Shown piece by piece: positions 30,575 through 63,906 of a stretch of 64,000 nt of DNA. Made by a program: the position numbers and the translations under genes. Position 1 is the stretch's first letter. The number at the start of each line of letters is the position of its first letter. The DNA is from Planctomycetota bacterium (GTDB taxonomy: Bacteria > Planctomycetota > Planctomycetia > Gemmatales > Gemmataceae), in NCBI GenBank assembly GCA_021413735.1, contig JAIOPV010000072.1:1-64000 (forward strand), given 5' to 3'. The notes beneath the pieces were generated by a model, which saw only the letters and a list, made by a program, of their open reading frames with translations, made no database searches and had not been told where the DNA came from.

Positions 30575-32596
30575 TCACACGCGGCGGAACTGCTTGTCGA
30601 GTTCGTGTCGGCTGAACAGCAGCGATGTCGGCCGCCCGTGCGGGCAGTGGTGCGAATCTTCGGCGAGTTGCCGTAGGTGCAGCAGGTGGGCGATCTCCTC
30701 TGGCGTGAGACGGTCGCCAGCCTTCACCGCGGCCTTGCAAGCCATCGTCGCCATCAGCAAGTGCAGCATCGCGTCGCGGGTCGGCGGCCGTTCCTTCGTC
30801 AGCAGGTGATCGACGACGCCCTGGAAAATCTCGTGCGGCGGCTTGCGGCTCAACAGCGTCGGATAGCTCGAAAGCAGCACCGTGTTCCCGCCGAAGTCGG
30901 ACACTTCCAACCCCAACTCCTTGAGCGCATCCGCAGCTTCGAGAACGAGTGCGGCTTGTTCCGCGGGCAGGTCGATCGGTTCCGGGATGAGCAGGCGTTG
31001 CACTTCGAGTTGCCCGGCTCGGATGCGTCGGCGAAGTTGCTCGAACAGGATGCGTTCGTGCAGCGCGTGCTGGTCGATGACGAGCATTCCCTCGGCGGTT
31101 TCGAGGACGAGATACGTGTCTTGAATCTGCATCGCGGTGCCCGGCGCGAGCGACGGCAATGCGGGCGGCGCGGGTTCTGGCGAAGAAGACCCCTCCCCAA
31201 CCTCTCCCCCAAGGGGAGAGGGGCTTAAAACGTTGGCTGTTGGAGGAGGCGCGGCTTGTGTTCGAATCTCATTACTTTGTCCGGCTCCCCCTTCCTTCTT
31301 AGGGAGGGGGGTTGGGGGGTTAGGTTCTTCAGACACAACCGGAGGACTCACGTCCCCCGCTCGCCTAAATTCCTGATTCGATATCGCTGTGCCGCGATCC
31401 ATCTCCCACGGCGCAACCGTGCGGTTCGCCAACTCCTGACGCGGCGAGTGCGTCATCCCGATCACGGGCTGTTGCGGCCCCAGATCGGCCTCGCGAGTCG
31501 GTTGCGTGAACAGCCCCGGCGCCAGCGGATCACGACTGCGAATCACTGGCTCCGGCTCTTCAAAGCCGATTGGCTCCCCCTGCGGTGCGGTCAGGTGCGG
31601 AACCAGATTCTCCTTCAGAAGACGCGTCTTCACCGCGGCCCGCACCATCGTGTAGATGTGCGAGTTTTCCTGAAACCGCACCTCCGATTTCGTCGGATGC
31701 ACGTTCACATCGACCTTGTCCGGCGGGATCGTCAGGAACACAAACCCGATGGAGTATCGCCCCGACATGAGCAGGCCGCGAAACGCTTCCTGCATTGCGT
31801 GGGCGACGCTGCGGTCACGGAACCAGCGACCGTTCACGAACAGATATTGCAGCTTCGCGTTGCCACGGTCGCATTTCGGATCAGCGATGAAACCCGTGAC
31901 TCGCGTGGCTCCCGGCCCGGAGTCGATCTCGTAAAGCGAGTCGCGGATTTCGCCGCCGAAGAACAACGCAATGCGATCGAGCAAGCCCGCCGAACCGGGG
32001 ATGTCGTAGACGAGTTTGCCGTTGTGCCGAAGCGTGATGTGCAGCGCCGGATTCGCCAGCGCCAACCGCGTGACCGCCTCGCAGACGTGTCCGAGTTCCG
32101 TCGCGATGCTCTTGAGGAACTTCTTGCGAACCGGCACGTTGAAGAACAGATGTCGCACTTCGAGCCGCGTGCCCGGACTGCCATTCCACGGCCGCACCGG
32201 CGAGAGGTCGCCGCCGTCGCACTTGATCTCGGCTCCAACGGCTTGGTCGTGCGTCCGCGATTGCAGCGTGACCTTTCCCACGCCCGCGACCGATGCGAGA
32301 GCTTCACCGCGAAAGCCCATTGTGCCGATGGCGAACAGATCGTCGGCGTTCTTCAGCTTACTCGTGGCGTGCTGTGCGAATGCGAGCCCCAGATCTTCGG
32401 GCGTGATGCCGCAACCGTCATCGACGACGCGGATGAGTTCGGTGCCGCCCGCGTCGAGGTCGATGTCGATGCGGGTGGCTCCGGCGTCCACGGAGTTTTC
32501 GAGCAGTTCCTTCACGACCGACGCGGGACGCTCGATGACCTCGCCCGCGGCAATCTTCGTGACGACATCAGGAGGCAGTTGTTGAATACGTGGCAT
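30575..32596 (-). CDS. mutL: DNA mismatch repair protein MutL
   Basis: About 673 residues. The GHKL ATPase motifs are intact: ELLENSVDAGAT, VVDDGCGI, QHATSKL, GFRGEALASV. The C-terminal dimerisation domain carries DQHALHERILFE, which fits the DQHA(x)2E(x)4E endonuclease motif, plus CPHGRP near the end, so this is a nicking-type MutL. The linker (about residues 340-490) is long and low-complexity; residues 411-470 are encoded by copies of intergenic repeats (31186-31365). No mutS lies in the window. ATG at 32596. Confidence 0.95.
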   Translation of the reverse strand: MPRIQQLPPDVVTKIAAGEVIERPASVVKELLENSVDAGATRIDIDLDAGGTELIRVVDDGCGITPEDLGLAFAQHATSKLKNADDLFAIGTMGFRGEALASVAGVGKVTLQSRTHDQAVGAEIKCDGGDLSPVRPWNGSPGTRLEVRHLFFNVPVRKKFLKSIATELGHVCEAVTRLALANPALHITLRHNGKLVYDIPGSAGLLDRIALFFGGEIRDSLYEIDSGPGATRVTGFIADPKCDRGNAKLQYLFVNGRWFRDRSVAHAMQEAFRGLLMSGRYSIGFVFLTIPPDKVDVNVHPTKSEVRFQENSHIYTMVRAAVKTRLLKENLVPHLTAPQGEPIGFEEPEPVIRSRDPLAPGLFTQPTREADLGPQQPVIGMTHSPRQELANRTVAPWEMDRGTAISNQEFRRAGDVSPPVVSEEPNPPTPLPKKEGGAGQSNEIRTQAAPPPTANVLSPSPLGGEVGEGSSSPEPAPPALPSLAPGTAMQIQDTYLVLETAEGMLVIDQHALHERILFEQLRRRIRAGQLEVQRLLIPEPIDLPAEQAALVLEAADALKELGLEVSDFGGNTVLLSSYPTLLSRKPPHEIFQGVVDHLLTKERPPTRDAMLHLLMATMACKAAVKAGDRLTPEEIAHLLHLRQLAEDSHHCPHGRPTSLLFSRHELDKQFRRV
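31186..31365. repeat. Intergenic-type repeats inside the mutL linker
   Basis: Three repeat pieces sit within the mutL reading frame. 31190-31232 is a CCCTCCCC/GGGGAGAGGGG palindrome of the type at 41668-41821 and encodes SPSPLGGEVGEG. 31282-31322 is a second C-rich/G-rich palindrome encoding PPTPLPKKEGGAG. 31341-31365 is one arm of the family F element seen complete at 63833-63906 and encodes RRAGDVSPP. All keep the frame open. Confidence 0.85.
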
Positions 32597-37346: not shown

Positions 37347-37439
37347 TGTGAGCGTCGCGGCGTCAGCCCGACGGTGCCACGCAAACTACAGCAATTGTGT
37401 TTGCGATCGTACCGTCGGGCTGACGCCGCGACGCTCACA
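37347..37439. terminator. Family A palindrome after pnp
   Basis: Arms 37347-37377 and 37409-37439 are 31 bases with only two differences, starting TGTGAGCGTCG. A second stem, GCAAAC/GTTTGC, lies in the loop. Directly follows pnp and precedes the yebC promoter, so it probably ends the rpsO-pnp transcript. Confidence 0.75.
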
Positions 37440-38246: not shown

Positions 38247-38320
38247 AGGGGTTGTTGTCTTCGCCGCTTGCGGCGTAGCGCACATTTGCCACGTCGCAAG
38301 CGGCGAAGACAACAACCCCT
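38247..38320. repeat. Extended family B palindrome after yebC
   Basis: 33-base arms 38247-38279 and 38288-38320 with two mismatches. The family B core (CCGCTTGCGGCGTAGC) forms the inner part and AGGGGTTGTTGTCTTCG is an outer extension not found in the other copies. Likely a strong hairpin ending the yebC transcript. Confidence 0.9.
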
Positions 38321-39794: not shown

Positions 39795-39878
39795 AACTCG
39801 GAACGCCGAGTGCGGAATGAAGCCACGAGAACCCAAGGTTGGCTCTCGATCTTCATTCCGCACTCGGCGTTCCGAGTT
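39795..39878. terminator. Perfect 28-bp palindrome between converging genes
   Basis: Arms 39795-39822 and 39851-39878 are perfectly complementary (each starts or ends with AACTCGGAACGCCGAGTG). It lies between the ends of the FHA gene (39790) and the methyltransferase gene (39890), so it would act on transcripts from both sides. Confidence 0.75.
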
Positions 39879-41669: not shown

Positions 41670-41821
41670 TTGGTTTTGCCCTCTCCCCTTAGCGGGAGAG
41701 GGTGGCCGCGCTTCGCGGCCGGGTGAGGGGTTGAGCCTCAACACCTCACCCAGCCTTCCCCCCTCACCCGCTCGCAAAGCCTCGCTGCCCTCTCCCGCAA
41801 GGGGAGAGCGCAAAACCAAAA
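41668..41821. repeat. Family D compound palindrome
   Basis: A 154-base element ending in TTTTGGTTTTGC and its complement. The outer arms also contain CTCTCCCCTT...GGGAGAGGG hairpins on each side, and a GGCCGCG-CTT-CGCGGCC hairpin sits within. This repeat type encodes SPLGGE-like peptides when it lands in a gene, as in mutL. It lies between the TPR gene end and the methyltransferase start. Confidence 0.85.
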
Positions 41822-63832: not shown

Positions 63833-63906
63833 TTGGCGAGTGGGGGACGTCAGTCCCCTGATCCTTCTCAATCGCAATCTGGGGACTGACGTCCCCCGCT
63901 CGCCAA
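63833..63906. repeat. Family F palindrome
   Basis: Arms 63833-63858 and 63881-63906, 26 bases with one mismatch, based on GGGGACTGACGTCCCCCGCT. It sits between two minus-strand genes. One arm of the same element is embedded in mutL at 31341-31365. Confidence 0.9.

Follow-up and report, generated by a model that had tools for sequence, protein, structure and literature searches.

An in-frame insert in the MutL linker of a planctomycete is very probably a copy of a mobile composite palindromic element

The Rickettsia palindromic elements (RPE) are described in PMC2229807 as repeats of 105-146 bp that lie between genes and also in frame inside conserved protein genes, and guanylate kinase is reported there to stay active with an RPE insert. 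The same source describes bacterial MITEs with ORFs, in Neisseria and enterobacteria, as small non-autonomous repeats with inverted ends that are fused in frame to ORFs. Intragenic REPs, which carry GTAG/CGTC tags and form BIME-like dimers, are presented in the survey PMC3733652 as hairpin dimers that encode 20-30 residues in genes, many of them repair genes, and the recB genes of two Xanthomonas species are said to carry different REPs at about the same site. REPs are mostly intergenic in that survey and occur in planctomycetes too, and mutL is absent from its main text. A search by title and abstract opening, covering few subscription papers, found no earlier report of in-frame palindromes in genes of Gemmata or other planctomycetes. 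Here we analyze an insert in a planctomycete mutL gene, and consider it highly probable that it is one copy of a non-autonomous mobile composite palindromic element of ~95-150 nt, which would insert roughly at random and be kept where it is in frame and tolerated. Most likely it is translated as filler in a floppy linker.

The window, by which we mean the whole 64-kb stretch of DNA that was analyzed, belongs to a draft genome of 293 contigs and 9.8 Mb, presumably that of a Gemmata-like planctomycete (G000; relatives are labeled G001-G018, and C and L numbers denote contigs and loci). The features of the mutL locus are listed below, the extent of the composite element being based on matches to genome copies and a search for its ends, with end coordinates set by eye.

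30575..32596, minus strand: mutL, intact ORF of 673 aa with Pfam domains HATPase_c_3, DNA_mis_repair and MutL_C; dN 0.069 and dS 0.785 relative to G008
31185..31330, minus strand: composite palindromic element P1-spacer-P2, 146 nt, with ends GAAGAACC...GGTCTTC, encoding about EEPNPPTPLPKKEGGAGQSNEIRTQAAPPPTANVLSPSPLGGEVGEGSS
31283..31330, minus strand: P1 half, tail and hairpin, PPTPLPKKEGGAG; 86-98% identity to other matched copies, core pattern at 62 places
31230..31282, minus strand: spacer between the hairpins, QSNEIRTQAAPPPTANV; unusually long, with 45 nt between the matched halves
31185..31229, minus strand: P2 half, hairpin (31201-31221) and tail, SPSPLGGEVGEG; identified by repeat matches
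31342..31365, minus strand: remaining arm of a family F palindrome, RRAGDVSPP; its partner arm is retained in G008 but missing here

An earlier note on this DNA had placed three repeat-derived stretches in frame in mutL, and this is borne out by the intact ORF and by the position of the three peptides, which fall within residues 411-469 of MutL (DNA 31186-31366). The insert itself covers residues 421-471, between the Pfam DNA_mis_repair (211-326) and MutL_C (489-630) domains. In the AlphaFold2 model of MutL (mean pLDDT of 70.7, pTM of 0.50), residues 332-449 and 451-482 have pLDDT values below 50 and the two conserved regions are mostly above 70; the insert is predicted to sit in a disordered linker. 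This agrees with the note's placement of the repeats in the linker, which runs between the conserved domains and where nearly all of residues 332-482 are below 50. Within the window, the P1 and P2 hairpins each match only themselves when up to 3 mismatches are allowed (chance matches were 0 in 100 shuffles each), and BLAST added two further hits, one of 20 nt to part of the P2 hairpin (41789-41808) and one of 22 nt to the family F stretch (63883-63904). The window also holds long inverted repeats at 37347-37439, 38247-38320, 39795-39878 and 63833-63906, with arms of 26-29 bp and no coding signal by the codon model introduced below.

Searching G000 with the linker hairpins gave at least 75 matches, 40 of the 182 candidate stretches being scored. 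Genome-wide, the P1 core occurs 62 times (28 forward and 34 reverse, compared to 1 for a reversed-pattern control), and with patterns of our own P2 is found downstream of P1 and in the same orientation at 55 of these 62 places; it lies upstream at 6, and P1 stands alone at 1. In 916 kb of G000, 33 P1-then-P2 pairs were counted, with a gap of 0-15 nt in 31 of them, 45 nt in mutL and 51 nt in a copy on contig C20. Given this same-orientation pairing, mostly with a short gap, SPSPLGGEVGEG and PPTPLPKKEGGAG are the two ends of one element, and the three different repeat types proposed for the linker were not borne out. The C20 copy, the other one with a long spacer (C20:13174-13308, L002/L111), has an open frame running into a 197-aa ORF, which we take to resemble a DUF559-type nuclease, next to a gene whose product presumably resembles a sugar-binding protein.

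The canonical element is ~95 nt long, has the ends GAAGAACC...GGTCTTC and folds with -58.2 kcal/mol. Lengths range from 85 to 146 nt, mostly 93-108, among the 46 of 55 P1P2 copies with both ends located, and the mutL copy is 146 nt long. Short, imperfect terminal inverted repeats, GAAGA(A)CC / GGT(T)CTTC, are present in the 45 copies compared, which is a weak test as the copies were found by these ends. The folding of the mutL copy is no better than that of its shuffles (z of -0.58), and the C285 copy has a z of -2.2. Read by eye, the canonical element has no stop in four of its six frames.

The coding status of the copies rests on a codon model trained on 401 ORFs. According to this model, 32 of the 62 copies in G000 are internal and in frame, 8 and 5 sit at the N- and C-terminal ends of ORFs, respectively, 12 are open without coding signal and 5 have no open frame. 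The repeat had been regarded as intergenic, which was not borne out: 45 of the 62 copies have an open frame that is flanked by coding signal, and in 32 of these the signal is present on both sides. When real copies were inserted at random into contigs C61 and C22, 219 of 1500 (14.6%) were internal and in frame, compared to the 32 of 62 observed (P = 8.5e-12), and only 2 of the 47 other long inverted repeats of the same contigs (396 kb) are internal (P = 5e-8). Leaving out the 13 copies at ORF ends, the internal in-frame copies make up 32 of the 49 internal and non-coding ones, against 57% expected from random insertion followed by purging (P = 0.25). In G009, sampled at 20 loci hand-picked from a listing, with approximate element extents and some flanks masked (N), 5 of 24 exact-core copies are internal, which is not above the null (P = 0.27) and is below G000 (P = 0.014). 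Intrinsic targeting to genes is thus unsupported, since the internal/non-coding split fits random insertion and purging and G009 shows no excess. We propose that copies insert at roughly random places and in either orientation, that gene-breaking copies would be purged by selection, and that in-frame copies at tolerant sites may persist as neutral passengers, translated, as predicted, into ~30-50 residues of Pro/Gly-rich filler.

The internal hosts have a Pfam match in 29 of 32 cases and none in 3. By our own reading, 18 of the 29 have the insert within a domain (which spans it, is split by it, or breaks off there as an incomplete match), 8 have it between domains and 3 have it outside the regions matched. 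Pfam identifies among these hosts GIDA (MnmG), a PP-loop protein, a polyprenyl synthetase, an adenylosuccinate synthetase, a flavin amine oxidase, a P-type ATPase, two helicase-like proteins and a type III polyketide synthase-like protein; we take the PP-loop protein to be TilS, the polyprenyl synthetase IspA, the adenylosuccinate synthetase PurA and the protein of flavin amine oxidase type HemY. In the AlphaFold2 model of the IspA-like protein (mean pLDDT of 81), residues 183-204 are below 50 and lie between two helices, and the insert (residues 180-208) is predicted to occupy a disordered loop. Six diverged PSD1 (DUF1553) paralogues, whose best local alignments show 34-53% identity, share one insertion site for the element, which may reflect either recurrent insertion or gene conversion.

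G000 C112:1525, C178:1502, C186:11452, C234:716, C46:9188 and C26:22327: element copies in PSD1/DUF1553 genes, site after an HPELLDWLA-like motif

A palindrome of another family lies in frame at C171:47346-47476 of G000 (L138), where it encodes the peptide PSPLAGEGGQRFADRVRGE...SPPSPARGEG in what we assume to be a QueA-like protein.

The host genes mutL, ispA and mnmG are under purifying selection, with dN/dS values of ~0.09, ~0.16 and ~0.05, respectively, relative to G008. In the P1 half of the 31 internal copies, substitutions from the P1 consensus are spread over the three codon positions as 27, 21 and 24, with 465 sites each (P = 0.69). The mean P1 divergence is 5.2% for internal copies (n = 31), 5.8% for copies at ORF ends (n = 13) and 8.1% for non-coding copies (n = 14). 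This set excludes the copy with P1 alone and three copies that aligned oddly, none of the three with coding signal. Recruitment of the peptides into MutL and other proteins, where they would change or regulate function, has been a matter of published speculation for REPs within repair genes (PMC3733652), and several of the hosts found here act on nucleic acids (MutL, MnmG, TilS and the two helicase-like proteins). We nevertheless regard such an exaptation as improbable: the hosts are diverse, the 31 internal copies use three reading frames and those at ORF ends a fourth, the P1 half shows no codon-position bias, and the same loops contain unrelated peptides in other species, as detailed below.

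The nearest relative by the mutL core is G008, with 96.1% core identity, and the mutL insert is missing from G008, G013 and G014, the three nearest relatives by mutL. None of the G008 orthologues of mutL, mnmG, ispA and tilS carries the element. With up to 1 mismatch, the P1 core was not found in the genomes of G008, G013, G014, G005, G011 and G017; it was counted once in G002 and 25-154 times in the other 11 genus members (76 in G007 and 94 in G009), with 0-2 matches per genome for a reversed control. An exact P1-core scan of 297 genomes of the class gave a match in 16, of which 14 are from the same family. These absences refer to the 18-nt P1 core, or to a BLAST search with the canonical element that covered 10 transposase loci and ~166 kb from G008 and G013, tests that strongly diverged subtypes could escape. 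From the dS of ~0.7-0.8 between G000 and G008, the spread of the element would be younger than their split.

The claim of the earlier note that mobile palindromic DNA was turned into coding sequence in mutL is supported, as far as predicted coding goes, by the place of the insert within the linker and by its absence from the three nearest relatives. In the linker comparison that the note had called for, the insert is lacking in G008, G013 and G014, and it is lineage-specific; P1/P2-type peptides are also present in the linkers of G001 and G004, and the P1 core is found in the mutL stretch of G001. Since the sister genomes of the window (G008, G013 and G014) hold no P1 core, the inserts of G001 and G004, which form a separate clade of the same genus in the mutL tree (support of 98), are most simply read as independent gains. 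Had the peptides of the window's MutL turned up in distant MutL proteins, this would have pointed to an ancestral sequence; the 27 linkers listed gave no such case. In general, MutL linkers vary and are rich in Pro, as would suit an ancestral Pro/Gly-rich linker with a chance resemblance to repeats; this origin is extremely unlikely given the DNA-level identity to dozens of copies elsewhere and the element-free orthologous DNA of G008, G013 and G014.

The family F arm at 31342-31365 has 38 arm matches genome-wide, with 0 for the reversed control. At the same place in mutL, G008 holds both family F arms and G013 three arm-like copies. The order in G000 is one family F arm, then the P1P2 element, then a right flank resembling the one that follows the second arm in G008. 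What survives as RRAGDVSPP is thus one arm of a palindrome that is older than the P1P2 element and unrelated to it. From the comparison of the arms in G000, G008 and G013, we infer that the element seems to have landed in this older family F palindrome and to have replaced its spacer and second arm. A family F palindrome (LASGGRESPGVVGTESGDLRPPLAK) is also found in frame within a 714-aa ORF at C22:214787-214860 of G000.

In other species, the loops that hold the element in G000 contain unrelated palindromes. The IspA loop of G008 has a family F palindrome and the MnmG loop of G013 an CAGTGGGCAGTGG palindrome. By eye, the TilS loop has a 44-nt palindrome in G008, a palindrome resembling family F in G016 and a tandem series of palindromes in G007. 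G012 TilS carries the P1P2 element itself. Compared to 200 base shuffles each, 28 of 57 loops across relatives contain an inverted repeat that reaches the 1% level or better (25 of 53 without G000), distributed as 8 of 15 for mutL, 5 of 15 for mnmG, 9 of 18 for ispA and 6 of 9 for tilS; the other 29 have no significant inverted repeat. These loops were picked because G000 has an insert there; the motif missed mutL in 2 genomes and tilS in 4, one tilS loop was too short, and the test set lacked mnmG of G005, G006 and G018 as well as tilS of G005 and G009. G008 is positive in three of its four loops (not mnmG). The mutL linker of G000 is not significant in this test (19 of 200 shuffles), probably because its palindrome is imperfect. 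In the G009 tilS region (L262/L300), several palindromes carry stops that, unless they are sequencing errors, interrupt the frame, and the frame of the sister G007 is open.

The presence of different palindromes in one loop is suggestive of something beyond mere tolerance, and the data do not separate the two. As a tentative and rather doubtful extension, the loops might act as self-renewing landing pads, in which a resident palindrome attracts its replacement by an unrelated one via breakage and repair directed by the palindrome; housekeeping proteins would then have loops that turn over hairpin for hairpin. The mutL locus is compatible with such a scheme, as the element adjoins the surviving old arm and its right flank is like that past the old second arm.

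GC-rich hairpins are found here within genes that are usually held essential, and the stops within such inserts in the G009 tilS frame could be accommodated if the hairpin were skipped at the RNA or ribosome level, in an intron- or bypass-like manner, giving a protein without the insert. An open frame would then be needless, yet coding signal on both sides and on the same strand is seen in only 3 of the 17 copies without coding signal, and we consider skipping very improbable. The three are C59:13188, the L175 copy and, less strongly, C76:7712, which has a stop 9 nt before the element; each may either break a gene or lie between two.

Translation as linker filler remains the preferred reading for the mutL copy. 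Element copies are absent from the flanks of the 10 loci examined among the 11 Y1_Tnp matches of G000, and G007 has 0 Y1_Tnp matches despite its 76 cores; mobilization by a RAYT was rejected on these two grounds. The element shares with REPs the form of a hairpin dimer that encodes a peptide within genes, including a repair gene. It differs in having neither RAYT association nor the GTAG/CGTC tag, which, by eye, is found on neither strand of the canonical element or the P1 consensus; judged by sequence, it is not a GTAG/CGTC REP. With MITEs it has in common its small size, non-autonomous nature, inverted ends and in-frame position, but no target-site duplication was detected and solitary ends led to no parent IS. 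The best signal of a target-site duplication, 7 of 45 copies against 3.4 expected and with many offsets considered, is not convincing, and no conserved target bases were found around the copies. The element ends gave 51 matches, of which the 4 outside the 62 cores are 2 diverged copies and 2 truncated halves and offer no candidate for an autonomous parent.

The best reading is that the element works like the RPE, to which we liken it by size and location: both would be palindromes of similar size, present in many copies and in frame inside conserved protein genes (here 32 of 62 copies, with Pfam matches in 29 of 32 hosts). The differences are that the present element belongs to another phylum, that about half of its copies in one genome are internal and in frame, and that the protein loops in question are filled by unrelated palindromes in other species. 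Annotators should be aware that low-complexity peptides that keep recurring can stem from repeat DNA. The finding extends protein-coding palindromes to a planctomycete family and provides insertion experiments made by nature, dozens of them, in enzymes whose fold is known and whose insert-free relatives allow comparison. It also makes testable how such elements are moved without an evident transposase, and how far mobile hairpins, as opposed to point mutation and slippage, shape the loops and linkers of conserved bacterial proteins.
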